Source of the DNA: a virus
Length of the DNA: 51,937 nucleotides
Direction: 5' to 3' (one strand)
IMG/VR virus record: IMGVR_UViG_3300042922_000712
Location: 1 to 51,937 of that record
This document shows positions 4,645 through 41,493 of the stretch, piece by piece (the stretch's first letter is position 1; each line of letters opens with the position of its first letter). A program made the translations under genes and the position numbers. The notes beneath the pieces were generated by a model that did not search any database, had not been told where the DNA came from, and was given only the letters and a program-made list of their open reading frames with translations.

Positions 4645-4670
4645 TACTATATAACCTCCTACAAATAAGA

Positions 4671-4705
4671 TATATTCATGGTTATAATATATAACCATGA
4701 ATATA
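4671..4705. repeat. Perfect 16-bp inverted repeat containing a promoter motif
   Basis: The arms at 4671-4686 and 4690-4705 are perfect reverse complements (tatattcatggttata and tataaccatgaatata) with a three-base loop. The early-type promoter core lies in the middle, so this is either an operator-like site or an AT-rich terminator for the gene at 4722. Confidence 0.6.
4683..4694 (-). promoter_or_regulatory. Early-type promoter motif
   Basis: The minus strand reads TTATATATTATA, then ACC and ATGAATA, an exact match to the window-wide consensus. The start of the LysM gene is 38 bases downstream. Confidence 0.6.
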
Positions 4706-4721
4706 TAAAATTACAAATCGT

Positions 4722-5549
4722 TTATTCCCATCGCTTTAGCATTATTTCTCTATCGTACTCTTCTTGATTATTATTCATCGCCTTTAAAGCATTTAATTTC
4801 CATCCTTCAGACATTCCCAAATCATCAGCGTGGAAATTCATGTATACCCAATTTGATTTTGCTAAATGTTTGTCATACATTTCAATATCAAATTTATCTG
4901 CTTTTCTTCTTATAGTTTCCAAAGCAGCATTGTATTCTTTTCCAACTGTGCTAGTAATAACAATATGATCTTCAGTATTAGAAGGATCTACATTTGCATC
5001 AGTATATTCCATATGTTCAGCATCATCATACCAATATAAATCTTTTTCATTTCCAGGATTTAATATTAGCCCTGGAAATCCATGGTTTCGTATATAAGAT
5101 GGAAGAGTATTATGCAATTCTGCTAAGCGAATATTGAAATGATTTAAATTATTTGCATTTATAAAAAATGCTCGTAATTGTCTTCCCCATAATAAATATA
5201 ATAACATTGTTGTTGTTTTATGAGATACCTGTCGACATCCAAGCCAATATATATTATACCCACTATTAAGAGCATATATTACAGCCATTGTAGCTGGAGT
5301 CAATTCAAATTTTTCCAAAACGTTACCATTAGGTATTCTTACAACTTCTCTAAAATAATACCATATATTATTCATAGACTCGTGTATAATTCTAGCTTTA
5401 TCACTATCTGTTAGAAATGGGTCATATGGATCTGGAAGTTTTTCTTCGCTCAATTGTTTTAGCATAAATAAATTATTTTTTATGCCCGACATTTTTAAGA
5501 ATTTGCTCATTTCCAAAAATGACTTATTTTTAGTATCAGTATTATACAT
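4722..5549 (-). CDS. Terminase large subunit-like ATPase domain, truncated and with altered Walker A
   Basis: The 275-residue product resembles the N-terminal motor of large phage terminases. The segment IYWLGCRQVSHKTTTM (near residue 105) sits where a terminase has its RQxGKT-type Walker A. LYWYDDAEHMEY near residue 170 looks like Walker B, and IVITSTVGK near residue 200 like the coupling motif. The end, EEYDREIMLKRWE, matches the linker that normally precedes the nuclease domain. No nuclease domain follows, and Walker A lacks the usual GKT, so it may be a degenerate paralogue or regulatory subunit. Function is inferred and moderately uncertain. Confidence 0.5.
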   Translation of the reverse strand: MYNTDTKNKSFLEMSKFLKMSGIKNNLFMLKQLSEEKLPDPYDPFLTDSDKARIIHESMNNIWYYFREVVRIPNGNVLEKFELTPATMAVIYALNSGYNIYWLGCRQVSHKTTTMLLYLLWGRQLRAFFINANNLNHFNIRLAELHNTLPSYIRNHGFPGLILNPGNEKDLYWYDDAEHMEYTDANVDPSNTEDHIVITSTVGKEYNAALETIRRKADKFDIEMYDKHLAKSNWVYMNFHADDLGMSEGWKLNALKAMNNNQEEYDREIMLKRWE

Positions 5550-5564
5550 TATTTTCCCACCTTT

Positions 5565-5750
5565 TTAAATTTCAAATTTTTTCCCACAATTCCAGCAAGT
5601 ATATTCGTAATCATGATTTGGATATCCGTCTCCACCAGAGCGCTTCTTATAATCGTGAATATCATGATACTCTTTACTAAACCAACAAACAAAACTTGTT
5701 GGTAACCACGGATCAAAAAGTATCGCAACTATAACAAATACATATTTCAT
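5565..5750 (-). CDS. Small membrane protein with a Cys pair
   Basis: A 61-residue protein begins MKYVFVIVAILFDPWL, a hydrophobic segment that may be an anchor or signal. It ends CWNCGKKFEI, a half zinc-ribbon-like motif. Its ATG overlaps the TGA of the NADAR gene (ATGA), so translation is coupled. No family is recognised. Confidence 0.6.
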   Translation of the reverse strand: MKYVFVIVAILFDPWLPTSFVCWFSKEYHDIHDYKKRSGGDGYPNHDYEYTCWNCGKKFEI

Positions 5751-6190
5751 ATTTTCCCTCCATTCATATTAATACGTATTTCTTCTCTAACTTTCATGAG
5801 AATTTTTCCAAGTAAATTTTTGCCATTTCCATTAACTGTACCCCATGTCTTATCTCCCCAATCATTTTCTTCTATAAGTTCCATTTCTCCAGTTAGAAGT
5901 AATCTGTTGCGAAGATCTATATTCTGAGTAAATTTTGCCATAACTACTTTATACATAACTTCTTCTTTTATATTCTCCCAATCTCTACAAAGCTCAACTT
6001 TCCTGCCAGCTTTCTTTGCTTCAGAAGGTTTTAGCCAGCAGAAGAATTCTCTAAGTTTAATATTCTCTGGCTTATGGCTTTGAAATGCGGCTTCATTATT
6101 TTGAAATACAAGATCATCAATTATAACTCTTCTGGGAAAGAAATTGCTTAAAAAGAAATATCTACCTCTAAATCCTGCTATTTTGTCCAT
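5747..6190 (-). CDS. NADAR (YbiA-like) family ADP-ribose glycosidase
   Basis: This 147-residue protein has the NADAR/YbiA pattern: FLSNFFPRRV near residue 13, VFQNNEAAFQSHK near 28, SEAKKAGRKV near 55, and WGTVNGNGKNLLGKIL near 115. The family acts on N-glycosidic bonds of riboflavin intermediates or ADP-ribose. Some NADAR proteins remove ADP-ribose from guanine in DNA and work as antitoxins to DarT1-type toxins. Here it lies three genes from a TARG1-like macro domain, so reversal of host ADP-ribosylation is a plausible role. The substrate is inferred. Confidence 0.8.
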   Translation of the reverse strand: MDKIAGFRGRYFFLSNFFPRRVIIDDLVFQNNEAAFQSHKPENIKLREFFCWLKPSEAKKAGRKVELCRDWENIKEEVMYKVVMAKFTQNIDLRNRLLLTGEMELIEENDWGDKTWGTVNGNGKNLLGKILMKVREEIRINMNGGKI

Positions 6191-6445
6191 TTATAATTCC
6201 CCTTCCACTAAATTCACTATGCACAATTTTATATTTGTGACGCATATTCTTGCTTTTTCTTTCCACCCACGAGGAATGGTAAAATATCGTTTAGCATTCA
6301 TAACCTTTATTTCAGTTTTATAATCATGCGCGTTTCTAAGTACTTCTCTAGATTCAAATAGTATTTTTACATAGCTCCATAATTTTTTAAAAAAGCCTTC
6401 AGCTTCTAAATATAAATAATTATAAGATCTATATCTTTTATACAT
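6191..6445 (-). CDS. Small basic protein, unknown
   Basis: An 84-residue, Tyr/Lys/Arg-rich protein (MYKRYRSYNYLYLEAEGFF) lies directly between the NADAR and DUF488-like genes with no gap. It is predicted mixed helix and strand, with no recognised domain. Its position inside the ADP-ribose cluster suggests a related job, but the sequence does not show it. Confidence 0.6.
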   Translation of the reverse strand: MYKRYRSYNYLYLEAEGFFKKLWSYVKILFESREVLRNAHDYKTEIKVMNAKRYFTIPRGWKEKARICVTNIKLCIVNLVEGEL

Positions 6446-6447
6446 AA

Positions 6448-6795
6448 TTAAGCCCCTCTTTTTATTTTTCTTTCTCCCATATAAATGGCTCCAAGATTTA
6501 CAAATAGATTAGCCAATAAATACCTATGACAAAAACTATTTGTTTTACAAAAACAAACAAAGGTTATTTCATCCATATTAAGAATTTTATTCCATTCCCA
6601 TCTATGGTGCATATGCGATATTCTCATTTTTTCTAAATATATTTTAGTATATTCTTCATCTGAGATTATACCACTTTTATGATTTTTTACTAATTCCCAA
6701 GTTGGAGCAAATGCAGCATTTACATTTGTCCCAACCGTGATATCGAATTTATCATTTCCATTATATTTATATTGAGCTGTCCAGATTTTTACCAT
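6448..6795 (-). CDS. DUF488-like protein
   Basis: The 115-residue protein contains FVCFCKTNSFCHRYLLANLF near residue 80. This matches the conserved C-terminal motif (hydrophobic strand, Cys, then FCHR.L.A) of the DUF488 family, whose function is unknown. The N-terminus IWTAQYKYN and the middle segment AFAPTWELVKNHKSG also fit. The start overlaps the stop of the macro-domain gene. DUF488 proteins often sit beside nucleotide or ADP-ribose enzymes, which agrees with this neighbourhood. Confidence 0.6.
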   Translation of the reverse strand: MVKIWTAQYKYNGNDKFDITVGTNVNAAFAPTWELVKNHKSGIISDEEYTKIYLEKMRISHMHHRWEWNKILNMDEITFVCFCKTNSFCHRYLLANLFVNLGAIYMGERKIKRGA

Positions 6796-7211
6796 TATCC
6801 TGTCCTAACTAATATATTTATACTAGATGAACTGAATATATCTTTGATCATTGCACGAACTTTAGACCATGTAAGTCTATCTAAACCGCATGCTATTCTT
6901 GGCATGGCTAAATATTCTATATTATAAAGATTACATAATTCCCTCATTTTAATTAAAGTAGACTCTAATGTATAATATGTAGGCTTTGAGCATTTAATAG
7001 GTTTAGTAATTAAATTAAAAACCCTTCCTACTAAAACAGCATCTCCAATTTGACCATTGGACCTGATTAAAATATGACGAAGCCGAAATCTTCTTTCAAA
7101 TTCAACAGCTATGCCTTTTCCAAGAGCAAAATCTTTGGAAACGCAATGAGCCAAATAATATTTATCAATGTCTATATCAAATACACTTCCAGACTCTTCT
7201 GTATAAGTCAT
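6795..7211 (-). CDS. TARG1/OARD1-like macro domain ADP-ribosyl hydrolase
   Basis: The 138-residue macro domain closely follows the TARG1 pattern: LAHCVSKDFALGKGIAVEF at residues 20-38, FNLITKPIKCSKPTY at 65-79, and LAMPRIACGLDRLTW at 101-115. In human TARG1 the catalytic lysine lies in LITK and the aspartate in CGLD. Their counterparts here are K70 and D111, both present. TARG1-type domains remove ADP-ribose from acidic residues and from thymine in DNA, as in DarG antitoxins. It heads a compact operon ending in NADAR, which suggests an anti-ADP-ribosylation function. Confidence 0.85.
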   Translation of the reverse strand: MTYTEESGSVFDIDIDKYYLAHCVSKDFALGKGIAVEFERRFRLRHILIRSNGQIGDAVLVGRVFNLITKPIKCSKPTYYTLESTLIKMRELCNLYNIEYLAMPRIACGLDRLTWSKVRAMIKDIFSSSSINILVRTG

Positions 7212-7263: not shown

Positions 7264-7276
7264 TTTCAAAAAGATA

Positions 7277-7304
7277 TACCCTATACCTTTAAAGGTATAG
7301 GGTA
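7277..7304 (-). terminator. Intrinsic terminator after the gene at 7309
   Basis: A 28-base palindrome (taccctatacc...ggtatagggta) is followed on the minus strand by TCTTTTTGAAAATT. It separates the radical SAM operon upstream from the macro-domain operon. Confidence 0.8.
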
Positions 7305-7308
7305 CAGA

Positions 7309-7554: not shown

Positions 7555-8679
7555 CTATATCCATTCTATAGTAAACTTGATATTATCTATAATTTTATCT
7601 AAATAAACTTTAGTATTACTTAAATGCGATAATGCAACTTCGCAAGTTTTATATGCTTTATCGAAAGTTTCAGCTTCTTCATTGTATAATTGACCTATAC
7701 ATTTAACACAATTGTTTTCCAATATACAATTATCGCATTTAGAATCTTTAAATTTATTTAATATAGCAATAATCTTTTCCATATCAAATCCAATATCAAC
7801 ATTTCCCACAATTAAATTTTTTGTTTTATGGATAAACATATGACATGGATATATATTTCCATGAGTATCTAGACACGCCATATGAGATCCAGATCCACAT
7901 TGATAATCGTCTGTTTTTTTTCCTATAGATTTTTCTAATACATCTATATTTTTACAGATAGATTGAGCGTCGATACAAAATTCTTTATTACTGCCAATCA
8001 AATAATCAAATACTTCATAATATGATTTTTTTAATAGTTCCACATCATCTTTAGTCCACATGTCTTTAAAAGCAACACCGCAAGTAATTCTAATATTCTT
8101 TAATTCTTCTACTTGAAATTTTATAATATCTGGAATACTTGTTATATTATTATGGGCTATAGTAGTTTTTACAGTTTCTAAACTATATCGCTCTCTTGCC
8201 CATTCATAATTTGGCATAATATCTTTGAAAGATCCGCAGTCATTTGATTTATAAATTCTATTTTTATCATGTTCGCTTTCCGGTCCATCTATACTAAATC
8301 CTATAGAAAAAAAAGGATATTTATTTAAAAAGTCTTTTACTCTTTTTGTTCCTACTAATGTTCCATTTGTGCTAGCATGCATATGAAATTTACCACACTG
8401 CCCCCAATGATGGTCATATTTTTTTACTTTATTAAAAAAAGATTCCACTGCGCTTTCCAATAAATTCATTTCTATAAGCGGTTCTCCGCCTATAAAGTTT
8501 ATAACTATACTTTCCCTATCTTTTGTAAATGGAGAGGTGAACAATACGTCGAAATATTTATCAATATTTTCTTTAGTATTTATTACTTCCTTTTCCCCAT
8601 CAACGTAACAATAGCTACATTTAAGATTACATCTATTGCTAGTGTAAACCATTGCAGTAAACGGATATGTAAGATTCAT
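7555..8679 (-). CDS. Radical SAM/SPASM enzyme, putative peptide or protein maturase
   Basis: The 374-residue protein has the radical SAM motif CNLKCSYC (C17, C21, C24) and the GGEP motif in FIGGEPLIE near residue 64. A SPASM-type C-terminal region has conserved cysteines: CLDTHGNIYPC near residue 270, then CDNC, CVKC and a last Cys near 350. SPASM enzymes usually modify ribosomally made peptides or proteins. It is a close paralogue of the gene at 9295 (both have TSNRCNLKC and YCYVDGE) and is the third gene after the CX3 cysteine-array protein. Its start overlaps the stop of the gene at 8681. The substrate is inferred. Confidence 0.85.
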   Translation of the reverse strand: MNLTYPFTAMVYTSNRCNLKCSYCYVDGEKEVINTKENIDKYFDVLFTSPFTKDRESIVINFIGGEPLIEMNLLESAVESFFNKVKKYDHHWGQCGKFHMHASTNGTLVGTKRVKDFLNKYPFFSIGFSIDGPESEHDKNRIYKSNDCGSFKDIMPNYEWARERYSLETVKTTIAHNNITSIPDIIKFQVEELKNIRITCGVAFKDMWTKDDVELLKKSYYEVFDYLIGSNKEFCIDAQSICKNIDVLEKSIGKKTDDYQCGSGSHMACLDTHGNIYPCHMFIHKTKNLIVGNVDIGFDMEKIIAILNKFKDSKCDNCILENNCVKCIGQLYNEEAETFDKAYKTCEVALSHLSNTKVYLDKIIDNIKFTIEWI

Positions 8680-9294: not shown

Positions 9295-10410
9295 TTATAT
9301 AAATTTTATTGTATCTTTTATATTTTCTTTTAATTTATTAATAAAAATATGAGTTAATAATATTCCTATTTTTGTCAAATTGCAATTATTATATACTTTA
9401 TCAAAAGTATCATTTTCTGGATTGTATATTTGAGCAAAACATTTTCTGCAAATACTATTAAATCTACATTTATTACATTTAGCCGATTTTATTTTTTCTA
9501 AATTTGCATTAATTTTATTTATATCCAATCCAGTATCAACATGACCTATAGCAAATTTATTAATATTATTACTTGCTAATATCTGGCATGGATATATATC
9601 ACCGCTTGGATGTATGCATATTGTATATCTTGCAAATGAGCAGTTAAATAATTTTTTATAATTATTTTTTTTATCATAGTCATAATAATTTAAAGGTTTA
9701 AATAAATTTTTTATCGCAATTGTAAACTCTTTATTATCCATTATTAACTCATCTATGATTTTGCTCACTTGCATCTTGACACTTCTAGCATCGTCTTTAG
9801 AAAAATAAGCACTGCCATTTACATTAACTCCTATTGCTCTGGTTTTTAAAGTATTAAGCTGAAATGATAATATATCATATAGATCATCTACATTATTATT
9901 AGATAGAGTTGAATCAACTCTATCTATATTATATTTTTCTTGTATCCATTCAAAGTTAGAAATTACGTCATTAAATGAACCACAATTATTTTTATACATC
10001 CTATTTTTATCATGAATATTTTCTGGTCCGTCTAGGCTAAACCCAATAAAAAATGGATATTTATTTAAAAAATCTTTAACTCTTTTAGTACTAACTAAAG
10101 TGCCATTAGTGCTAGCCATAAAGCTAAAATTATTTAACCAATGATGGTTATACTGTTTAGCTTTATGAAAAAATTGTTCAATTGTATATTCTATTAGATC
10201 TAATTCGACGAATGGCTCCCCTCCAATAAAATTTAATTTAATTTCGTCCCTATCTTTAGTATATGGAGAAGTAAATAATATGTCTAAATATTTATCAATA
10301 TTTTCTTTAGTATTTACTACTTCCCTTTCTCCATCGACGTAACAGTAGTTACATTTAAGATTGCACCTATTACTGGTATAAATATAGCTATTTAATTTAT
10401 CATATTTCAT
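9295..10410 (-). CDS. Radical SAM/SPASM enzyme coupled to the cysteine-array protein
   Basis: The start is the ATG at 10408-10410 (MKYDKLNSYIYTSN), which overlaps the TGA of the cysteine-array gene as ATGA. The 371-residue protein has CNLKCNYC (C16, C20, C23), FIGGEPFVE, and a SPASM-like C-terminus with HPSGDIYPC, CNKC, CRKC and a terminal NNCNLTK. It is highly similar to the gene at 7555. Tight coupling to a CX3-repeat protein suggests it forms thioether or other crosslinks in that tail. This is inference from context. The reaction type cannot be read from the sequence. Confidence 0.85.
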   Translation of the reverse strand: MKYDKLNSYIYTSNRCNLKCNYCYVDGEREVVNTKENIDKYLDILFTSPYTKDRDEIKLNFIGGEPFVELDLIEYTIEQFFHKAKQYNHHWLNNFSFMASTNGTLVSTKRVKDFLNKYPFFIGFSLDGPENIHDKNRMYKNNCGSFNDVISNFEWIQEKYNIDRVDSTLSNNNVDDLYDILSFQLNTLKTRAIGVNVNGSAYFSKDDARSVKMQVSKIIDELIMDNKEFTIAIKNLFKPLNYYDYDKKNNYKKLFNCSFARYTICIHPSGDIYPCQILASNNINKFAIGHVDTGLDINKINANLEKIKSAKCNKCRFNSICRKCFAQIYNPENDTFDKVYNNCNLTKIGILLTHIFINKLKENIKDTIKFI

Positions 10411-10793
10411 TGCGATCCACATCCAGCACAACTCGTAGTGCAGCTTCCGCTACAATGAGTATAACATCCAGTTTGACACGTACCAGTACAATTTCCAGAA
10501 CAAGGATCTCTATAATTTACTATAGTAGTATTCAGTGTACCAATTTTACTATAAATATCTGTATCAGTGTTAATTAAATCTGTTATTTTTGCCCATAATG
10601 CGTTATCCCCATTTATTCTAGCTTGAGCTTCTGCCGTATCACCAGCTATTCTAGCTTGAGCTTCTGCCGTATCACCAGCTATTCTATCTTCTATTTCTGC
10701 ATATAATTCTATTTTCGTAGCTTTAGAATTTATTAAATTTTGCAAAGATGGAGCCAATTCATCATATGTAATTTTATCTTCTGCGAGAAACAT
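10407..10793 (-). CDS. Fibre-like protein with C-terminal CX3 cysteine array, probable radical SAM substrate
   Basis: The protein has 128 residues. Residues 5-20 carry the recurring EDKITYDELAPSLQNL motif of the phage's small fibre-like proteins. Residues 38-62 contain two exact 11-residue repeats (IAGDTAEAQAR) and a diverged third copy, probably a trimeric coil. The tail has eight cysteines at 98, 102, 106, 110, 114, 118, 122 and 125: six CX3 steps and one CX2. This resembles CXXX-repeat targets of radical SAM maturases. The stop codon overlaps the start of such an enzyme. I infer that the tail is crosslinked and displayed on the virion. Disulfides or metal binding are alternatives. Confidence 0.8.
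   Translation of the reverse strand: MFLAEDKITYDELAPSLQNLINSKATKIELYAEIEDRIAGDTAEAQARIAGDTAEAQARINGDNALWAKITDLINTDTDIYSKIGTLNTTIVNYRDPCSGNCTGTCQTGCYTHCSGSCTTSCAGCGSQ
10615..10680 (-). repeat. Two perfect 33-bp direct repeats in the cysteine-array gene
   Basis: Positions 10615-10647 and 10648-10680 are identical and encode the 11-residue coil repeat. Exact identity at DNA level means recent duplication or conversion. A third, diverged copy lies on either side. Confidence 0.9.
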
Positions 10794-21314: not shown

Positions 21315-22481
21315 TTATTTATATGGCAACTCCGGCATGCTATTTTCTACGTTCCAGTCTTCATTATAGTGATATACTCGCTTCACCTTTTCGATATCTA
21401 CGACATCGGCTTTATTATATTCTAAAAATATCTCTCTTTCTATATTTCTTAAAACACACGTTTGATATAACTTATTCTGCATATTGCCAGTTCTAAATAG
21501 ATTAGTCGCAGGACATTCGAAGCAATGTAAACTACTACATTGAGTATTATAACACATAGGAACCTCTTTATATTGATCTATGAAGGATTTTACTTTATCT
21601 CTATAAAATCCTTCTTCTATACTACCCATATAGAGTTCACAGCCATTAAATACTGCATCTTTACTAAAGAAACCACATGGTGCAATTTTACCATCCATTT
21701 CAATATATAAACTCCTACCAAGATGACGACAAGCTATAGATCTGAGTCTGTCTTTTTCTTTATCTAGACAATACTCAGTAAAATATAAAGCATCCCAGTT
21801 GGAGTAGGTAAAATTATATTCTAATTTTAGAGTTGCTATTTTTTCTAATTGAGCTGTAGCTTTTTCAATAAATTTTAAATCTCTATATTCTTCGCAATCT
21901 GTCAAGTAGTAATATTCTAGTTTATTGCATCCATTATCTAATGCATACTTAAAACTATCATAAAGCGTATCTACTGTATTTGGAGTTAATGCTATTCTAA
22001 TAAGTATATCATCTTTATATCTAGACCTTCCAATGATAGAGAGTTTATTATTAAAAAATAAATTATCGTACTTTTTATTTTTTGGCTTCCTAGAATTAGA
22101 TGAAGAAAATATGCCATCCCAGCTATATTTGCAGCCCCATGATCTAAGTACACCTTCATCCATTAATTCAATTAAACCTTCCATATTAGTACCATTGCTA
22201 ATAGTAGTAAAATTTATTTTAATATCTTTCATACGCTCTAATTTAGATAGCTTTTTATATGCATATCTAATATCATCACAAAATAAACTTGGCTCTCCTC
22301 CAGTAACCTTAAATTCTAAGTCTTCATCTAAAGGAAGCTTAGATAATAAATTAATCATATCATCATACTTATCAAATTTATTATCAATAGTTTTTGTATC
22401 ATACTTTTGAAAACAATATTCGCAGTCAAGATTGCAATATTGTGCTATCTTAAAAGTTACTGCTGTTATATTTGTAAACAT
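21315..22481 (-). CDS. Orphan radical SAM/SPASM-like enzyme
   Basis: The 388-residue protein has CNLDCEYC (C16, C20, C23) and an intact FKVTGGEPSLF near residue 62. Its C-terminal cysteine-rich region includes IEMDGKIAPCGFF and a dense cluster (MCYNTQCSSLHCFECP) before a last TCVLRNIERE. It is a clear paralogue of the protein at 25933, sharing SWDGIF, SRYKDDILIR or SKYKDDILIR, and the C-terminal cluster. Unlike the other radical SAM genes it has no cysteine-array protein next to it. The substrate is unknown. Confidence 0.8.
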   Translation of the reverse strand: MFTNITAVTFKIAQYCNLDCEYCFQKYDTKTIDNKFDKYDDMINLLSKLPLDEDLEFKVTGGEPSLFCDDIRYAYKKLSKLERMKDIKINFTTISNGTNMEGLIELMDEGVLRSWGCKYSWDGIFSSSNSRKPKNKKYDNLFFNNKLSIIGRSRYKDDILIRIALTPNTVDTLYDSFKYALDNGCNKLEYYYLTDCEEYRDLKFIEKATAQLEKIATLKLEYNFTYSNWDALYFTEYCLDKEKDRLRSIACRHLGRSLYIEMDGKIAPCGFFSKDAVFNGCELYMGSIEEGFYRDKVKSFIDQYKEVPMCYNTQCSSLHCFECPATNLFRTGNMQNKLYQTCVLRNIEREIFLEYNKADVVDIEKVKRVYHYNEDWNVENSMPELPYK

Positions 22482-25932: not shown

Positions 25933-26982
25933 TCACTCTCCACAATATAATTTTCTTTCAATATTACGAATTTTACATGGCTGAGATGCTTTGTACTCGA
26001 ATGTATCTCCAGCTCTATATGGTATTAATCTAGCACATTCGATACAATGTAAATTTCCACAATTAACATGATTACACTGATCGCAATTTATACAATTATT
26101 TATATTAATACTTTCTATTTTAGAATGGTCATACTGCTGAGAGATATCATCAAAATCAATGCTTGGCGGTTTATACTTATATCCATTACTATATGATCCA
26201 CACGGTAGTATCTTACCATATACGTCTATTTCTATAGAATTATATAATGATCTACACCATAGACGTTTTTTGGTTGTATTAGTGCTGTAGAATTCTGGCA
26301 TTGAGTTTATATTGAATATATTAATTCCATTACCATTATATTTATAAAGAGAATTTAATTCTTTTTCGAATATATTTAGAAAAATAGGATCTCTATATTC
26401 ATCGTTATCTATAAGAAAATAATACTCCCAATTAGAACATCCGCAATCTATAAGATATTCTATAGATTCCTTTTGATGAGATAATAATGTAGAGGTTAAA
26501 GCAGACCTAATTAGAATATCATCTTTATATTTAGATTTTCCTATCGATTCAATTGCTTTATTAAATAAAATATCATTATATTTTAAAGATTTAGATTCTC
26601 GTATATTCGAGCCAAATATTCCATCCCAACTCATGCTTGTATATTTTGGATCTAATATTCCTCTGTCTAATAAATCTAATATAGCTTCTATATTAGACCC
26701 ATTTGTATACAGCCCGAATTTTACATTAGTATCTTTATATCGTTCTATCTTTTTAAGTTTACTATAAGCCGTTTCTATAAGATTTGGAAACAAACTTAGT
26801 TCTCCGCTAGATACATTTATAAGTACATCTTGAGCTAATGGTGCATCTATTAAAAATTTCAGTAGATCGTCAAACCTACTGAATCTATCGTTTGACTTTC
26901 TAGCATCTTCAGTCAAAAAACAATACTTGCAAGATAAATTGCAAGTATGTAATAAATGTAGATTTATCCAATTTATGCTCAT
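25933..26982 (-). CDS. Radical SAM/SPASM-like enzyme with altered GGE motif
   Basis: The 349-residue protein has CNLSCKYC (C14, C18, C21). Where its paralogue at 21315 has VTGGEPSLF it has VSSGELSLF, so the first glycine and the proline of the GGEP motif are changed while the glutamate stays. The C-terminal cysteine cluster is strong: VYGKILPCGSY, NCINCDQCNHVNCGNLHC and a final PCKIRNIERK. The start overlaps the upstream stop as TAATG. It may have reduced or altered SAM binding. The substrate is unknown. Confidence 0.8.
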   Translation of the reverse strand: MSINWINLHLLHTCNLSCKYCFLTEDARKSNDRFSRFDDLLKFLIDAPLAQDVLINVSSGELSLFPNLIETAYSKLKKIERYKDTNVKFGLYTNGSNIEAILDLLDRGILDPKYTSMSWDGIFGSNIRESKSLKYNDILFNKAIESIGKSKYKDDILIRSALTSTLLSHQKESIEYLIDCGCSNWEYYFLIDNDEYRDPIFLNIFEKELNSLYKYNGNGINIFNINSMPEFYSTNTTKKRLWCRSLYNSIEIDVYGKILPCGSYSNGYKYKPPSIDFDDISQQYDHSKIESININNCINCDQCNHVNCGNLHCIECARLIPYRAGDTFEYKASQPCKIRNIERKLYCGE

Positions 26983-28013
26983 TAAATATCACCCAATTTT
27001 TTATAATAATTATTCAGATATGATTTGTACGATATGATAATATTCTGCAATCTATATTTATCAGCTGCACTTAAATCATTTAAAAACTTCTGTATAGTAT
27101 CAGCATATATCTTAACTACTTTACAGGTACTTTGCAAATAATATGCTTGCCAATCGTCACCATATTGATTATATCTTTCGTATCTACATCCACCATCGCA
27201 TAGCCATGAATATTTACATTTTATACAATCTTCATGCACACATGATTCTTGTACAGTTTGTAAATCAAATTCTTTTCTTTCTTGACTTAGAGCAGTACAT
27301 AAACTTTCATTACCATACGGATCTATAGTTATATATTTCCCAATATCACAACTAGCGAAAGTTTTATCCATGTTTATATAGGCAATTATTTTATTTAGAT
27401 GATCTGAGTACATCTTGTCCAAGTCAAATGTGAGTGGCAATTGTTTGGATAACTCATTATAAAAGTCTTGGGTGTATAGATCTCTATGAGCTATAACAAA
27501 TTGCCCACTTACTCCATATTTTTTTAACTCTTTAAATTTTTTATGAATATCATACATATGGTGGACGTTATTATTACTAATAACTGTTTTTATATCGAAC
27601 TCCAACCCACATGATATAGCGTACTCTATATTTTTATAAACTTCAAATGATATAGTATCACCCACAATATTAACTCTATTAGAATTGAATCCATCCCATG
27701 ATAATTGTATCTCATTTAATGGATATTCTTTATTAAACTCTATAAATTCTTTAAAATTTATAGATGTTGAAGTTACCACTTGAAATTTAATTTTTCTATA
27801 ATATTTTTTTACTATCTCTTGCATAAGATCTAATCTTACTAAAGGCTCACCTCCAAAGAATAAGATTCTTTGTGGCTTATATTTCTTTATTTTTGCATCT
27901 ATCATTTCTATAGACATACTACTAGGATTAGCCCTGTTGCGAATATAACAATATTCGCAACGATTTGGGCAAGATTCTGTCAGGAGTAAATATAATTCAG
28001 TATAATTGATCAT
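26982..28013 (-). CDS. Radical SAM/SPASM enzyme
   Basis: The start is the ATG at 28011-28013 (MINYTELYLLLTESC), overlapping the TGA of the HNH gene as ATGA. An ATG two codons earlier lies too close to the GGGAG site. The 343-residue protein has CPNRCEYC (C15, C19, C22) and an intact FFGGEPLVRL near residue 54. A SPASM region includes DPYGNESLC near residue 240, then CIKC, CDGGC and a final STCKVVK. It is the middle radical SAM gene of operon 2 and probably acts with its neighbours. The substrate is inferred to be the cysteine-rich protein at 29009. Confidence 0.85.
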   Translation of the reverse strand: MINYTELYLLLTESCPNRCEYCYIRNRANPSSMSIEMIDAKIKKYKPQRILFFGGEPLVRLDLMQEIVKKYYRKIKFQVVTSTSINFKEFIEFNKEYPLNEIQLSWDGFNSNRVNIVGDTISFEVYKNIEYAISCGLEFDIKTVISNNNVHHMYDIHKKFKELKKYGVSGQFVIAHRDLYTQDFYNELSKQLPLTFDLDKMYSDHLNKIIAYINMDKTFASCDIGKYITIDPYGNESLCTALSQERKEFDLQTVQESCVHEDCIKCKYSWLCDGGCRYERYNQYGDDWQAYYLQSTCKVVKIYADTIQKFLNDLSAADKYRLQNIIISYKSYLNNYYKKLGDI

Positions 28014-28882
28014 GACCATTCTCCCTTTAGGCTAGCTCTAATAGTATAAATTGTTCTATATAAGGAATCTAATCTATCTGTACTAGCAATATATTCTCTC
28101 CCATTCATAATAGCAAATATTTCTTTATCAGTTTTTTCTTGATAAATATATTTTTTGATTGTTTCTTTTTCTTCTTTAGAATAAGCATGTTTTTTACTAC
28201 TTCTATCAAAATTATACTGGCTAGAGATATGTCTCCAAGTATATCCACCACGAATGTCTCTAAGAAGAGTATGATTAGAATTATTTAGCTCCATACCAAA
28301 CCAGTTCATGATCTCAGTATTTGATTTACCTTTCTGAAACTCTTCACACAAATACCTAACGAAATTCTCATTAACAATTGGACGTTTATTTACAATGAAA
28401 GTATTTGTGCCATTATAAAATTCCCTAGCATGTTGATTATTAGCAGCAACTGTAACCCACTCAAGATTATTAGCAAAATTATTACGCTTATTTGTATCGA
28501 TATGATTAACTATTCTATTTGCGAAATCAATTGGCGGATTACAGAATTGATATGCAACAAGACGATGCACTAGAAACTTCTTACCACCAGCAACAGTTTG
28601 TAAAGTAACAGCCTGATAGTCACTATCAGCATCAGTATCATAATTAGTTAATATTACACGAGTAGTTGCGTTAAATATTATACCTCTAGTATTAATTAAA
28701 TACATACCAGGCTTAACCCCAGGGTATGTAATATATTGAAGCGCTTCGAAGAACTGCACAGGAACTAAAGAATACTGTCTTTCGATACCATCGCTATTGT
28801 TGTACTGTGAAGCAGGAATATTATTCTTATTCCTGCTATCAAATGGTACTCTCTCTACTATTGTCATCAATCCATTGCCCAT
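28010..28882 (-). CDS. HNH homing-type endonuclease
   Basis: The 290-residue protein contains FLVHRLVAYQFCNPP near residue 103, followed by VNHIDTNKRNNFANNLEWVT near 123. This is the classic HNH signature (His, then NH.D..K.NN...NLEWVT), preceded by a NUMOD4-like segment. The C-terminus has a helix-turn-helix-like region (SNTEIMNWFG and a second copy NREYIAST). Such enzymes are mobile genes that cut DNA at or near their own insertion site. It sits between the cysteine-rich gene and the radical SAM genes and interrupts that operon. It is not inside a visible intron. Confidence 0.85.
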   Translation of the reverse strand: MGNGLMTIVERVPFDSRNKNNIPASQYNNSDGIERQYSLVPVQFFEALQYITYPGVKPGMYLINTRGIIFNATTRVILTNYDTDADSDYQAVTLQTVAGGKKFLVHRLVAYQFCNPPIDFANRIVNHIDTNKRNNFANNLEWVTVAANNQHAREFYNGTNTFIVNKRPIVNENFVRYLCEEFQKGKSNTEIMNWFGMELNNSNHTLLRDIRGGYTWRHISSQYNFDRSSKKHAYSKEEKETIKKYIYQEKTDKEIFAIMNGREYIASTDRLDSLYRTIYTIRASLKGEWS

Positions 28883-29008: not shown

Positions 29009-29992
29009 TTATGACCATCCCCCACAATTTTGATTATGGCAAGTTCCACCATAGCAGCTTTGACATGATAACATGCAAGGTTTCTGACATGATACTTGGC
29101 ACGTTCTGCTACAACTGCCATTTGGATTCCACCAATCCTTATATGAATCTAGTGCTTGAGAAATGAGTCTTAAATTTGTAGCTATTGCTATAAATGTACT
29201 TGCATATATAATATCGCCTTTATTTACAGACGGTACAGCGTCTCCAGAAATAGATCCAGGAACTACTACGACTGCCTGTCTTTGAGTGCTACTGCATACC
29301 CAAACATATCCAAGATCTTCAGAAGAGCTTTCGCTTTTCCACCCATATTGTTTAACTCTATTAGGGCAACTTATAGATATATTACCACATAGCCTTTCAG
29401 AAAGACTAGTATCTGGAGTTTCTATTTCTGGACCTTCTTTAAATATTTGCTTTTTTGTTACGGTATAATAAGTTGGGTTTCCGTTTGCATCTAATACAGG
29501 AATAGGATTTCTAAATCCTGGAATCATAACAGCGTTTCCGCTAGCATCTACAATACCAACTCCAGTTACAGGATTTACCTTTTGCTGATCCAAGACTACA
29601 ACTTCTGCCTCTACTTTTATTATAGTATCTTGATATGGATAAGTGCATGTAATAATAGTCAGTTGACTAGAAGCTCCTCCGCACGTTCTTACCATTTCAT
29701 TGGTATATTTAATTACAGTATTTACATATGATGCATATATAGGAACGTCTACGCCTATAGACGCTCTTACTGTACTCATTTCATTTTCTTTAGCCGGATC
29801 TATAATACCGCTAAGTTGTTGTAATGGAGTACCATAGTTATCAGGATTGTTCATAATACGGTTTATAGAATCTCTTTCATTCATAGTTACCAATAATACA
29901 GAAAGTAAATATGATGTATCGGTTGCTAAAATTGCGTCTCCTCTAGCAACATCTTTAGGTTCTGTATATACTACGACTCCTCTATTAGCCAT
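29009..29992 (-). CDS. Virion-like protein with C-terminal eight-cysteine array, probable radical SAM substrate
   Basis: The 327-residue protein has an all-beta-looking body (PTVNKG-type loops, YVWVCSSTQRQAVVVV) without a known enzyme fold. It ends in a Gly/Cys-rich tail with cysteines at 294, 298, 302, 306, 310, 313, 318 and 323: four CX3 steps, then CX2, CX4, CX4. The first radical SAM gene of the operon overlaps it by eight bases. Number and spacing of cysteines parallel the protein at 10407, although the N-termini differ. I infer radical SAM crosslinking of the tail. Disulfides are unlikely in the reducing cytoplasm but possible on the virion. Confidence 0.75.
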   Translation of the reverse strand: MANRGVVVYTEPKDVARGDAILATDTSYLLSVLLVTMNERDSINRIMNNPDNYGTPLQQLSGIIDPAKENEMSTVRASIGVDVPIYASYVNTVIKYTNEMVRTCGGASSQLTIITCTYPYQDTIIKVEAEVVVLDQQKVNPVTGVGIVDASGNAVMIPGFRNPIPVLDANGNPTYYTVTKKQIFKEGPEIETPDTSLSERLCGNISISCPNRVKQYGWKSESSSEDLGYVWVCSSTQRQAVVVVPGSISGDAVPSVNKGDIIYASTFIAIATNLRLISQALDSYKDWWNPNGSCSRTCQVSCQKPCMLSCQSCYGGTCHNQNCGGWS

Positions 29993-31364
29993 TAATATTC
30001 TCCTTTCTGTCTAACTTTTTAGTCATCTCATCTAAGCTAACACCTTTCTTAGATAATTGATACGCTAAAATTATAGAAATCTTCGAATCTATATACTGTT
30101 TAAATGTAGGAAGAATGTTCTTTTTCCCAAGATTATCAACCATTTCCTTTAAATGCATAATTCTTGTAGTAAGAGTAAGACTATCATCTAGATCTGTCTC
30201 GCTATACAAAATATCTACATATTGCTTTAGTTTAAGATTTTCTTTTAAAAGATTAATCATCCTGTTTCTAATATTAGAAGCATTCATTAATTTTTCTCTG
30301 TATTTCAGAACTGCTTTAACTAAGGCAATGCTTGTTTTACAATGCCCAGATGATGGCTCATCATATATTCCAGTTTCTCGCATGTTTTGAGTTGGGCATC
30401 CGCCTTTACAAATAGATTTCCCAATACAATTATTACATTCTTCTTTTGGATATGATGCATGTATATCTTCTTTATTTAATTTAGTTTCATCCACTCCAGT
30501 ATAAAGATTCCCAATATATAAATCATCTTTGAATTTCTTTTCTGAAGTTGGTCCTTGATGGCATGGGTAGATATCTCCATTGGTATCGAATGCGCACCAT
30601 CTGTTAGAATAAATAGGACACATGATTGGATCGTCTATTTCTGGCTCTAAAACATTAGTTAAAATCTCATCTGTATTCTTAATAGAAATATTACGCTTAA
30701 TTGTATCATCATTTAACAAATCAACATAATACTCCATTAGCTGTTTATAATAATATTCTAATCTCATAGTATGTACAAAATCCCACTCAACGTCTGTTAC
30801 TGGCATTGGGCAGATATTATCAATACCCATATCGATAAGCATTTTAATACCATTTAATGCGTATTCTACATCTTCTGGAAGTATCGTCATTCTAGCTTCT
30901 ACAAATATAGCGAGCTTTCTATCTATAAGCTTTTTAAGATTAGAGTGCACAATATCAAAACTATCGCATCTATTTTTATCATGCACATATTTAATCCCAT
31001 CAATACTTACTAGCATCATAATAGAATTATCATCTATATATTCGAGCATTTCATCTGTAAGAATGGTAAGATTGGTAGTAATTCCATATCTCACTTTATA
31101 TTTCTTTTCATTACAATGATCTATTAATGCTTTGATAGTTTTCCAATTTAATAATGGCTCCCCTCCAAAAATATTAATAGTGAAATCGCCTATAGATTTA
31201 TCTACTTCCCTATATGATGCATCTATAATATCTATTGCAGTTTGAGGACTCATCATTTGCTCATTCTTATCATGCTCAAAACAATAAGAGCAATTAAGAT
31301 TACAATTATTTGTCACATTAATTGTAATAGAATCGCAGTTATATACCTCTTTGAATTGTTTCAT
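29985..31364 (-). CDS. Radical SAM/SPASM enzyme coupled to the eight-cysteine protein
   Basis: The 459-residue protein is the longest radical SAM gene here. It has CNLNCSYC (C21, C25, C28), INIFGGEPLLNW near residue 64, and a full SPASM region: CAFDTNGDIYPCHQGP near 250, then CNNC, CKGGCP and GHCKTS. Its layout is like SPASM peptide maturases and anaerobic sulfatase-maturating enzymes. A C-terminal helical extension (residues 365-459) is unique within the window. The stop overlaps the start of the cysteine-rich gene by eight bases, which marks the likely enzyme-substrate pair. Confidence 0.88.
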   Translation of the reverse strand: MKQFKEVYNCDSITINVTNNCNLNCSYCFEHDKNEQMMSPQTAIDIIDASYREVDKSIGDFTINIFGGEPLLNWKTIKALIDHCNEKKYKVRYGITTNLTILTDEMLEYIDDNSIMMLVSIDGIKYVHDKNRCDSFDIVHSNLKKLIDRKLAIFVEARMTILPEDVEYALNGIKMLIDMGIDNICPMPVTDVEWDFVHTMRLEYYYKQLMEYYVDLLNDDTIKRNISIKNTDEILTNVLEPEIDDPIMCPIYSNRWCAFDTNGDIYPCHQGPTSEKKFKDDLYIGNLYTGVDETKLNKEDIHASYPKEECNNCIGKSICKGGCPTQNMRETGIYDEPSSGHCKTSIALVKAVLKYREKLMNASNIRNRMINLLKENLKLKQYVDILYSETDLDDSLTLTTRIMHLKEMVDNLGKKNILPTFKQYIDSKISIILAYQLSKKGVSLDEMTKKLDRKENING

Positions 31365-34613: not shown

Positions 34614-36218
34614 ATGGCTTATTTAAGTGATCTCTGGATAACAGATCCTAATAACGCAAAATTATTTAAGATTGTAAGCGATCAAGTTGTAAGTAGTGCA
34701 GCATCCGAAGCCACACCCAGGGCTATATGTGTCGATCTAAATATGGTAGACGTCTGGGTTGTTAATACTACAGCTGGTAATATTTCTCAATTTAATAATG
34801 GAGTTAGAATAAAAGACATTAGAGTTGGGAAAACACCAATGGGTATAGCTCAAGATGCAGATGGTGCACTTTGGGTGGCTAACTATAGTTCTAATACTGT
34901 TTCAAAAATTGTAAACGGTATAAAAGTAATGGATATATCTGTCGGAGTTGGACCTAGGGGAGTTTGTGTAACTCCAGATGGCACAGTATGGGTAGCAAAC
35001 TATATATCTGGAACTGTATCAAAAATCGTTAATGATGTAAAGGTTAAAGATATCAAAGTTGGATTAAATCCATATGGTATATGTGCAGATAAATATGGAA
35101 ACGTATGGACTGCAAATGCTGGATCTAATACAGTATCAAAAATTGAAGATTCTAAAAAAGTTCTTGATATTAACGTTGGTAAGGTACCGCAAGGTATTTG
35201 TAGCGATAAATATGGGACTATTTGGGTATCTAATTATCTATCTGATACTGTATCAAAAATTGTTGGTGGTATTAAAACTCTAGATATAGTTGTTGGAGAT
35301 GGACCATTTGCTATTTCTACTATATCTGATGGGTCTATATATGTGGCAAACTATTTAGGAACAACCGTTACCAAAATAGCAGGAGATATTAGAGTCACTG
35401 ATATTGAAGTGTGTAATAATCCATGCAGTTTTGGAGATTTTACTGGCAATCAAGCGTATATTATTTTTAAAGGAAGCAACAATGGCGGAGGACATACTAT
35501 CATATCATATGAAGATTTAGATCCAAATCTTCAGCAAATGATTACAAATGCATCATATCCAACAGCTTTACCAGATGCTAATGTAACACATAGTCATGCT
35601 ACCTATGACACTGTTAAAAAGGCATTAGACTTTTTGTTATACGATGCTCCAGTAATTACATCATTCACTAATAATGTGAATACTGCCGAAATTGGTAGTG
35701 CTGTAACTGCAATAAATCTTAACTGGGCGCTTAATAAGGCTATGGTTTCTCAGTCTATTAATAACGGTGTTGGTGCTATTCCTATAGGAACTACCACTAA
35801 ACAATTAACCTCTCTTAATTTAACTGCCGATACTAGTTGGGTTCTTACTGTAACTGATGATGTAGAAGCAACAGTAACAAAAACAACATCTCTCAAATTC
35901 CAAAATAAGAGATATTGGGGAGTTGCTGCCGCTGCATCTCTTACTAATGCTCAAATTCTTGCGCTTAGTGGAGAATTTGCGACAGATTACAATATGAGCA
36001 AAACTCTCGATGCTAGTGGTGGTAAATATTTATACTTCGCTGTTCCTACAGCGTTTGGGTTAGATGCATCTAAATTTAAAGTAGGTGGACTTGCTAATTC
36101 TGACTGGGTAAAGACAACTGTTCAGTTTACTAATGCGAGTGGTCATACTTCTAGCTATGATGTATTCAGATCTGGAAATATCCAAACTGGTGCCGCGATA
36201 GGTGTTGTTATATCATAA
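34614..36218 (+). CDS. Beta-propeller fibre protein with an ELAPSLQ-like motif
   Basis: The protein has 534 residues. Residues 1-285 are about seven repeats of 42 residues with the pattern GTVWVANYISGTVSKIV and PRGVCVTPDG. This is the signature of NHL/virginiamycin B lyase-type beta-propellers. Residues 295-315 read IISYEDLDPNLQQMI, a relative of the ELAPSLQ motif in the small fibre proteins. The C-terminal 200 residues form a beta-rich head (NTAEIGSAVTAINLNWALN, ending in IGVVIS). A virion adhesin is the likeliest role, because the lyase catalytic residues are not obvious. Confidence 0.7.
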   Translation: MAYLSDLWITDPNNAKLFKIVSDQVVSSAASEATPRAICVDLNMVDVWVVNTTAGNISQFNNGVRIKDIRVGKTPMGIAQDADGALWVANYSSNTVSKIVNGIKVMDISVGVGPRGVCVTPDGTVWVANYISGTVSKIVNDVKVKDIKVGLNPYGICADKYGNVWTANAGSNTVSKIEDSKKVLDINVGKVPQGICSDKYGTIWVSNYLSDTVSKIVGGIKTLDIVVGDGPFAISTISDGSIYVANYLGTTVTKIAGDIRVTDIEVCNNPCSFGDFTGNQAYIIFKGSNNGGGHTIISYEDLDPNLQQMITNASYPTALPDANVTHSHATYDTVKKALDFLLYDAPVITSFTNNVNTAEIGSAVTAINLNWALNKAMVSQSINNGVGAIPIGTTTKQLTSLNLTADTSWVLTVTDDVEATVTKTTSLKFQNKRYWGVAAAASLTNAQILALSGEFATDYNMSKTLDASGGKYLYFAVPTAFGLDASKFKVGGLANSDWVKTTVQFTNASGHTSSYDVFRSGNIQTGAAIGVVIS

Positions 36219-38388: not shown

Positions 38389-39927
38389 ATGGCTTTAGTA
38401 AATTATTATGCGATAAGTGGTAGAGATTTGTCTCCTGTATATAGTACAGGAGCCACTAATACAGATGCCACTAAATGGTATACTGTAACTGGTGCTATAG
38501 CTACATCTGCACATCAGACAGCAGTAGCCTACGATTCGGCTGCTGGCATTGGAGCGTTAGGTGAGAAAAGTGCTATCGTCGGAACTACATTACCTTCTAT
38601 GGTATCTGGAAATTATGATGTATATGCATATATAAAATCGTGGGTTAACTATGGGGCATATGTAAGAGTAAATGGTGGGAGCTGGGCTACTCCATCTAAT
38701 GGTTTAGATACTACTATATTTAAATGGATTAAAATTGGCTCTCTTAGCTTAAAAACTGGGGATTTGGTGGAAATAGCCAATTCTAGTGGCGGTGGGTCTG
38801 TTGTAATAATGGATATCGCATTTACGAAGTCTGGTATAAAGCCTAATCACATACCGACTGGTAAAGAAGGGGCTAGAACTGTAACTGCTAATATCCAAGC
38901 TATAGTTAATGATTTAGGCAGCATGATTGTTGGTGATCTTATTTCATGCGAATATACGGCAGCTGCAAATACATTTGGGACGTTTGCAAATCTTGGCAAA
39001 GCTTCTAAAATAGCAATCCCTACTAATGGCGCAGCGGCAGCTCCAGATGGAACATTTAATTTTATCCTTGTAGGATATGATAGTAGAGGTCGAAAGAAAT
39101 TAATAGCCGATAGAAATATACAATCGGCTATATCTTGGGATGCACTAAATACAGCTGGTGTTGCGTCTGGTTCTGGATTGCCGATATCTATTGATGGAAA
39201 TAATATATTTACTACTAGACTATTAAGCGGTGGAGTATCTGCTACAGATACTGATAACGAATGGGATAAAATAATAGTAGGAAGTAATCTAAATGGTGCA
39301 ATAACAGCGGGAGATAATGCTATATGGAATTGGAATGTGATGTATTCTTGGACATCTACTACTTTAGCCACTACACCGGCTAGTAGAGTTTTAAGAGGAG
39401 TTTCAACAGTAGCAACTTATACAAGTGCGGCATCTCAATATGTTGGATATGGATTTAGACCTATGCTCATAGTGGAAGATACTGCTATTATAAGTATTAA
39501 TAATGTAACACCAACTCATTTATATGCAGGGCAACACACAGATTTTACAATAGATGCTAATGCTAAATCAGAAAGCATTAATGTAGATTTTAAAGTTAAA
39601 ATAAACAATGTCGATTTTGATACGTATAGTTCTGTATTATCCAGAACAATTCCAATAGAATCGCTCGTATCTGGTAATAACACTATTACTATAATTTCGG
39701 CAGATGGTGGATCAAAATCTGTAAATGTAACTTTAGAGGCTCCATATAGGACAATGGTTAATAGAACTTTTAAAAGTTATGATGGTGGCTATACTAAAGA
39801 TAATATAACTCTGGATAGTGATACGGCATTAGTAAAAAAAGATTATATTGGCGACGCGACAAAAACAGATGAGAATTTATTCTCTGTCAATATTGATAAA
39901 AATATATCTAAGATAGGAGTTGTATAA
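38389..39927 (+). CDS. Fibre protein with a CEYTA/GFRPML lectin-like module
   Basis: The protein has 512 residues. Residues 1-160 form a beta domain (YDVYAYIKSWVNYGAYVRVN). The module starts near 180 with GDLISCEYTAAANTFGTFAN, then APDGTFNFILVGYD, KLIADRNIQSAISW and, near 355, YGFRPMLIVE. The last 140 residues are Ig-like and end YRTMVNRTFKSYDGGYTKDN...KIGVV. That ending is shared with the protein at 41494. It is the first of four adjacent plus-strand genes built from this module, probably alternative or joint receptor-binding proteins. Confidence 0.7.
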   Translation: MALVNYYAISGRDLSPVYSTGATNTDATKWYTVTGAIATSAHQTAVAYDSAAGIGALGEKSAIVGTTLPSMVSGNYDVYAYIKSWVNYGAYVRVNGGSWATPSNGLDTTIFKWIKIGSLSLKTGDLVEIANSSGGGSVVIMDIAFTKSGIKPNHIPTGKEGARTVTANIQAIVNDLGSMIVGDLISCEYTAAANTFGTFANLGKASKIAIPTNGAAAAPDGTFNFILVGYDSRGRKKLIADRNIQSAISWDALNTAGVASGSGLPISIDGNNIFTTRLLSGGVSATDTDNEWDKIIVGSNLNGAITAGDNAIWNWNVMYSWTSTTLATTPASRVLRGVSTVATYTSAASQYVGYGFRPMLIVEDTAIISINNVTPTHLYAGQHTDFTIDANAKSESINVDFKVKINNVDFDTYSSVLSRTIPIESLVSGNNTITIISADGGSKSVNVTLEAPYRTMVNRTFKSYDGGYTKDNITLDSDTALVKKDYIGDATKTDENLFSVNIDKNISKIGVV

Positions 39928-39928
39928 A

Positions 39929-40651
39929 ATGGCTGCACCGCAAACAAATGGAGTTTTACGAACTACTTTAGAAAGTATGAATATTGGAGATTATATTAAG
40001 TGTGAAATATATAAGGCTCCTACATCAAATATTGTATTTACTTCTTCATTTTTAGGTAATTTGTCTACCGTGGATACAGAATCTTCTACTACACCTCCGA
40101 TGTATGTTGTAGGTTCTACCTTTAACTATAGATTTTTCTATCTTATTAAAGTGGATACAGGATTATTAATTGCAGATAGATTGCTATTCTCTAATATGTC
40201 TGCGCAAATACTGAATGCTCAAAATTATCTTTTGGGAAAGAAATTATCCGATAAATGCATGATGAGATGCTTATCCAGAGCAGAGTTTTTAAAATATATT
40301 TCCAATAGTGATTTAAATGGGAATATAATTAAAGCTGATGCAAATGTGTGGCATGGACTAGTCGGAACTGGCGCTAATTCGACTTCATTGGCATTTGGAA
40401 ATCTATATCCAGAAATAAATCAAGATAGAATTGGATCTAATGTTAAAACATCGCTCTATATGGATGGATCTACATATAGTACAACGTCTCATGTGTTTAT
40501 GGGAGGCAGTGCACTTATACCAGTTGTATCTGGATTTGCACTTGCAACTTTTGAGCTATCGAATGGAATAACCAGCAAATATCAATATTTATCATTCCGT
40601 CCAGCATTAGAATATGTCGATAATTCTAAATCTACAAATTTATATTATTAA
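39929..40651 (+). CDS. Single-module lectin-like fibre protein (copy 1)
   Basis: The start is the ATG at 39929 (MAAPQTNGVLRTTLESMNIG) two bases after the upstream stop, behind ATAGGAG. The 240-residue protein consists of one module: GDYIKCEIYKAPTS, FFYLIKVDTGLLIADRLLFS, then YLSFRPALEYVDNSKSTNLYY at the end. It is a close tandem duplicate of the next gene. The middle segment, where a lectin-like fold would bind, is the part that differs. Confidence 0.7.
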   Translation: MAAPQTNGVLRTTLESMNIGDYIKCEIYKAPTSNIVFTSSFLGNLSTVDTESSTTPPMYVVGSTFNYRFFYLIKVDTGLLIADRLLFSNMSAQILNAQNYLLGKKLSDKCMMRCLSRAEFLKYISNSDLNGNIIKADANVWHGLVGTGANSTSLAFGNLYPEINQDRIGSNVKTSLYMDGSTYSTTSHVFMGGSALIPVVSGFALATFELSNGITSKYQYLSFRPALEYVDNSKSTNLYY

Positions 40652-40657
40652 ATCATT

Positions 40658-40686
40658 ATATGTTACAATTTTAAATTGTAACATAT
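40658..40686 (+). terminator. Hairpin between duplicated genes
   Basis: A 14-bp stem (atatgttacaattt/aaattgtaacatat) has a one-base turn. It lies between the two copies and lacks a clear T-run, so it may be a processing or partly terminating site. Confidence 0.6.
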
Positions 40687-40753
40687 ATGCCGCCAAATTA
40701 GATTAATATTGTAAATCATACACTGCATTAATAAATGTAGGGGGATGATTTTG

Positions 40754-41479: not shown

Positions 41480-41493
41480 AAAGGAGAGATAAT

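Follow-up and report, generated by a model that had tools for sequence, protein, structure and literature searches.

Organization of the locus

The window, that is, the whole stretch of DNA analysed, is a virus record of 51,937 bases with a GC content of about 27-34%. Its minus strand carries a compact run of six genes in the order macro domain protein, DUF488 protein, 84-aa orphan protein, NADAR, zinc-ribbon-like ORF and terminase-like ORF (Table 1). A preceding sequence-only reading had reported the macro, DUF488-like and NADAR reading frames, and all three are present on this strand exactly at the coordinates it gave. Successive genes in this order are spaced by -1, +2, 0, -4 and +15 bases, and a recognisable ribosome-binding site lies before each of the six. 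Given the tight spacing, the ribosome-binding sites and the terminator-like hairpins on both flanks, the run from the macro gene to the terminase-like gene looks like one transcription unit. The perfect inverted repeat near its start, whose exact arm occurs at this single site and is absent from the rest of the window, is possibly an operator or a leader hairpin.

Table 1. Genes and sequence features of the putative operon, with positions in the window
Feature	Position	Strand	Remarks
Terminator-like hairpin, upstream of the macro gene	7275..7306	-	14 pairs
Perfect 13-base inverted repeat	7234-7246/7250-7262	.	immediately ahead of the ribosome-binding site of the macro gene
TARG1/OARD1-type macrodomain	6795..7211	-	138 aa; catalytic dyad K70 + D111
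DUF488-N3a protein	6448..6795	-	115 aa; C81-x-C83-x4-F88-C89-H90-R91; family of phiKZ gp151
84-aa orphan protein, between DUF488 and NADAR	6191..6445	-	relatives not found
NADAR, YbiA type	5747..6190	-	147 aa; active-site E33, K40, E107
Zinc-ribbon-like ORF	5565..5750	-	61 aa; weak Zn_ribbon_8 (Pfam, below cut-off); start overlaps the NADAR stop by 4 bases
Terminase-large-subunit-like ORF, final gene of the unit	4722..5549	-	275 aa; relatives in PBS1/AR9/BpSp/phiKZ-type phages
Terminator-like hairpin, downstream of the terminase-like ORF	4670..4706	-	17 pairs

No relatives of the orphan protein were found, in phages included. The matches of the terminase-like ORF are to PBS1, AR9, BpSp and phiKZ-type phages, which suggests that the record is a fragment of a jumbo phage near the PBS1/AR9/phiKZ type; the host is probably a low-GC Gram-positive bacterium. 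The terminase-like ORF is itself short, at just 275 aa, and its stretch GCRQVSHKTT resembles a Walker A motif of unusual form. The remainder of a terminase large subunit was not found with the families scanned, and the gene may therefore be split or truncated.

Several other genes of the window deserve mention. Six radical SAM-like proteins are encoded on the minus strand (7555-8679, 9295-10431, 21315-22481, 25933-26982, 26982-28019 and 29985-31364). For the three that were scanned against NCBIfam the best match is the PapB ranthipeptide-maturase model, below its cut-off, and two of these three also score well with the CXXX-repeat-target maturase model. Two minus-strand genes that adjoin radical SAM genes encode proteins with Cys-rich, CxxxC-like tails, one at 10407-10793 (...CSGNCTGTCQTGCYTHCSGSC...), with a weak match to the Cys-Xaa-Xaa-Xaa radical SAM target family (E 0.028), and one at 29009-29992 (...CSRTCQVSCQKPCMLSC...). 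Possibly, phage structural proteins undergo a peptide-type maturation here, and this would be unusual. An HNH_3 homing-type endonuclease (28010-28882, minus strand) has a radical SAM gene on one side and a Cys-tailed protein on the other. On the plus strand, the ORF at 34614-36218 has N-terminal Vgb_lyase/NHL-like propeller repeats, from which a Pfam match was assigned to it, and several related ORFs at 38389-43917 have the common blocks 'CEYTA...' and 'GFRPVL' and resemble expanded receptor-binding or tail proteins. Finally, the SLOG protein at 23438-23992 matches phrog_768, a DprA-like family (E 3.8e-16), with a weak Pfam DprA match below the cut-off, and has phage relatives. The suggestion that it shares the theme of the macro-NADAR locus finds no support in linkage: the gene is 16 kb away and not part of the transcription unit, and a DprA-like phage family is the best fit to its product.

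Assignment of the macro, NADAR and DUF488 proteins

The macro protein matches the Pfam Macro family weakly (E 0.048, below the cut-off), whereas phmmer, run against the sequences of the PDB, retrieves human TARG1/OARD1 with E 7.6e-23 and DarG with no better than 0.03. An AlphaFold2 model built from a 26-sequence alignment has a pLDDT of 95 and superposes on TARG1 crystal structures with TM 0.93-0.96, rmsd 0.8-1.1 A and E 2e-15 (TM 0.96 for 4j5q), compared with rmsd 2.0 A and E 1e-10 for DarG, so that the nearest structural match of the predicted fold is TARG1, not DarG or MacroD. K70 and D111, which had been proposed as the TARG1 catalytic pair, align with K84 and D125 of the human enzyme. Both are invariant in 101/101 aligned macro sequences, the count for D111 being biased by its position within the scan pattern that collected the sequences. 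The strict TARG1 pattern, TKx(30,35)Px[IL]GxGxD (PMC6397177), is missed at one position, where the phage protein has A107 for G, and we therefore call it TARG1-like rather than strict TARG1; 77 of the 101 relatives match the strict pattern and 95 the relaxed form in which A is allowed. The NCBIfam DarG model scores 30.7 bits against a cut-off of 250, and instead of the DarG architecture, in which a macro domain is followed by a C-terminal DarT-binding domain and lies beside darT, the phage gene encodes a stand-alone protein of 138 aa.

Assignment of NADAR was confirmed by a Pfam match with E 4.8e-26 (92 bits, cut-off 35) and by retention of all three catalytic residues, E33, K40 and E107, in keeping with the core motifs recognised earlier; the TIGR02464 profile likewise scores above its cut-off. 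The nearest phage relatives are in AR9/PBS1 (56%) and SPbetaL3 (52%). The last catalytic residue is an aspartate in DarT1-linked NADARs and a histidine in T4-type NADARs (PMC11125620, PMC11543638); with E107 at this position, the protein is of the YbiA type.

The DUF488-like identity of the remaining protein also holds, since its match to Pfam PF22751, DUF488-N3a (E 1.3e-9, 38.8 bits), is above the cut-off of 27. C81, C83, C89, H90 and R91 are family invariants, and the protein is homologous to phiKZ gp151 (phrog_2450). When its model was compared with the PDB, nothing reached E 0.001; the top hit was the RapZ C-terminal domain with Z 5.6, inside the tool's uninformative range. No link of DUF488 with ADP-ribose was found in the literature searched.

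Recurrence of the gene pairings

Single-sequence scans of viral contigs returned no relatives of the macro protein or the terminase-like ORF and only three of NADAR, and profile scans were therefore used. In two phage contigs, of 226 kb and 271 kb, DUF488-N3a is fused to NADAR in one ORF of ~300 aa (L103:5887-6831 and L105:5890-6846). Elsewhere among phage contigs, macro and NADAR are 275 bases apart in L094, macro, NADAR and DUF488 all fall inside 6 kb in L052, and the macro gene is adjoined by DUF488 in three cases (L081, L084 and L085). Chromosomes of Paenibacillus and Saccharibacillus carry a TARG1-type macro gene after NADAR, mostly in an operon of the form NrtR-NADAR-microbial PARG-macro (L149, L157-L161, L163-L165, L167, L177 and L179). 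A NADAR-macro operon with microbial PARG is found at 13 loci, usually together with NrtR (Nudix plus winged helix), and NADAR and macro occur without further partners at L152 and L154. Overall, a same-strand NADAR gene lies near the macro gene in 15/43 bacterial loci, and this bacterial recurrence is largely confined to one family, the Paenibacillaceae.

Since DUF488-N3a-NADAR fusions exist and the Paenibacillaceae have the NrtR-NADAR-PARG-macro operon, the linkage of macro, NADAR and DUF488 is no accident. Three kinds of support, namely fusion, recurrence in phages and bacterial operons, indicate that the grouping is meaningful, and the earlier proposal of one ADP-ribose-linked unit is supported by the coupling of the genes here and by their recurring pairings elsewhere.

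The full cassette is not conserved, as seen from the fetched flanks of viral macro loci, which contain NADAR in 2/80 and DUF488 in 4/80 cases. Whole-record searches of macro-carrying phages found NADAR in 8/50, no more than the published frequency in large phages (PMC9503650), and DUF488-N3a in 11/50, while phage records with DUF488-N3a have a distant macro gene in 25/36 and NADAR in 6/36; these co-occurrence frequencies are descriptive, all records having been selected by macro or DUF488-N3a. Genes adjoining the macro gene in Fnu1, G, LP65, LpeD and LC76P1 proved to be neither DUF488 nor NADAR, and the genes preceding DUF488 in pEa_SNUABM_54 and JM-2012, considered as possible macros, have no Pfam match.

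Proposed function

We think it fairly likely that the operon is an ADP-ribose-removal cassette of a PBS1/phiKZ-like jumbo phage, serving counter-defence or repair, which would remove ADP-ribose from macromolecules and/or ADP-ribose derivatives during infection. TARG1-type enzymes act via a lysyl-ADPr intermediate and free ADP-ribose from Glu/Asp esters, O-acyl-ADPr and DNA thymidine (PMC6397177, PMC8501950). In the phage protein Lys70 would attack C1'' of the distal ribose with the help of Asp111, and ADP-ribose would be freed from esters and possibly from thymine. NADARs free ADP-ribose from guanine, whether in DNA or in RNA, but are inactive on thymidine and phosphate ends (PMC11125620, PMC11833690), and every NADAR type tested reverses guanine-ADPr in vitro (PMC11125620); the phage NADAR would cut the N-glycosidic bond of base-linked ADP-ribose, the base being guanine in characterised NADARs. 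Because TARG1-type activity extends to thymidine and NADAR activity to guanine but not to thymidine, the two activities would be complementary. The DUF488-N3a protein, probably a Cys-based enzyme, may process ADP-ribose once it has been set free, or the phosphate of that product. Apparent co-transcription with the terminase-like gene suggests that expression of the cassette probably coincides with that of packaging or virion genes. In the simplest account, the cassette would strip off and dispose of ADP-ribose that the host or competitors attach during infection; most likely it cleans up damage from bacterial defences.

The sequence-only reading had pointed to DarT toxins, with the macro protein undoing the thymine-ADPr of DarT2 and NADAR the guanine-ADPr of DarT1 on phage DNA. 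The chemistry allows this: TARG1 reverses thymidine-ADPr and rescues DarT toxicity in a manner that requires K84 (PMC8501950), and NADARs complement this activity by acting on guanine-ADPr and not on thymidine-ADPr (PMC11125620). DarTG blocks phage DNA replication (PMC11543638, PMC11481870), and phage counters to it are known, namely AdfB in ICP1 (PMC11481870) and, as the title of reference 47 in PMC12548467 indicates, antitoxin-like orphan enzymes directed against DarTG1. A single small operon would then neutralise the two known DarT chemistries together, provided that DNA is a substrate of both the macro protein and NADAR. However, the NADAR is of the YbiA type and, at the D171-equivalent position two residues before E107, has L105 instead of the D of DarT1-linked (BC4488-type) antitoxins, and NADARs outside the DarT1 class, among them YbiA of E. 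coli K-12 and the T4 protein, reverse guanine-ADPr in vitro yet failed to rescue cells from DarT1 (PMC11125620). A search for DarT (PF14487) across the window ORFs found none. Among bacterial genomes with related TARG1-type macros, just 2/42 have DarT, and the Paenibacillaceae pair sits in the NrtR-PARG operon, with DarT in one such genome only. A dual anti-DarTG role is thus chemically possible, but we consider it unlikely and do not favour it over a broader one. We would give very little weight to an operon dedicated to de-ADP-ribosylation of two bases in DNA, in which the TARG1-type enzyme would clean thymine and NADAR guanine on the phage chromosome, DUF488-N3a would complete product removal, and co-expression with the terminase-like gene would place repair before packaging.

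Alternatively, the cassette might serve to destroy low-molecular-weight signals or toxins of the ADP-ribose type (cADPR variants, ADPr-1''-phosphate, O-acyl-ADPr), a terminal phosphate being taken off by DUF488-N3a; we hold this reading to be a serious, if somewhat less than probable, possibility. It is the published interpretation of phage macro/NADAR/SLOG/DUF4326 neighbourhoods, and NrtR, found in the bacterial operon, belongs to a kind of regulator that is known for ADP-ribose sensing (PMC9503650). O-acyl-ADPr is an efficient substrate of the TARG1-type enzyme FmTARG1 (PMC6397177). The DUF4326 profile weakly reaches the DUF488-N3a proteins of phiKZ (gp151) and the L103 fusion, but these matches fall below the DUF4326 cut-off. 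Moreover, characterised NADARs act on guanine-ADPr linked to nucleic acid (PMC11833690), and no signal-producing defence is known for this host.

A cassette for the removal of ADP-ribose added by others also has to be weighed against phage housekeeping, that is, reversal of the phage's own ADP-ribosylation, NAD/ADP-ribose salvage or RNA-end repair. ARTs and RNA repair are frequent in large phages (PMC9503650, PMC7824862), and human TARG1 reverses phosphate-end ADPr on RNA and DNA (PMC11833690), yet a Pfam scan of the ORFs in the window, which is a fragment, detected no ART, sirtuin, Nudix or RNA-repair family, and we regard such a role as quite unlikely. Whether or not the macro protein and NADAR act on DNA, the Paenibacillaceae NrtR-NADAR-PARG-TARG1 operon offers a cultivable system in which the natural substrate could be found.

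Comparison with known systems

The individual enzymes and their habit of clustering are already known, but not the exact gene set. Neither DUF488-N3a as a partner, including its fusion with NADAR, nor a TARG1-type macro with a YbiA-type NADAR in one operon was found stated in the literature searched. A 2022 study (PMC9503650) described the co-occurrence of macro, NADAR, SLOG and DUF4326 (rhodanese-phosphatase) genes in DNA viruses and their neighbourhoods, some of which include terminase genes. These neighbourhoods resemble the present locus in combining macro and NADAR genes of large phages with a gene for a Cys-motif enzyme and, in some cases, with terminase or portal genes, and they differ in that the Cys-motif protein here is DUF488-N3a and not canonical DUF4326, the macro protein is of TARG1 type, and the operon lacks SLOG.

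With human TARG1/OARD1 and FmTARG1 (PMC6397177) the phage macro protein has in common the Lys/Asp dyad, the length and the fold (rmsd about 1 A), but it has A107 for the pattern glycine and is 37-38% identical to the human protein. The macrodomain of the DarG antitoxin (DarTG2) belongs to the same ALC1-like macro class and has the catalytic Lys position; however, identity is about 20%, the rmsd is about 2 A, and the phage protein has neither a DarT-binding C-terminal domain nor a DarT partner. The phage NADAR has the fold family and the core E and K in common with the DarT1 NADAR antitoxin and T4 gp30.3, but it has the YbiA-type final glutamate, no N-terminal extension and no DarT1 neighbour. 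Finally, phiKZ gp151 and its relatives (DUF488-N3a, phrog_2450) are about 37% identical to the DUF488 protein and have every CxC...CHR residue. In phiKZ, unlike here, gp151 is not annotated beside macro or NADAR, whereas in L103 and L105 the family is fused to NADAR, and the fusion hints at a role in ADP-ribose handling for gp151, a protein of as yet unassigned function that many jumbo phages encode.
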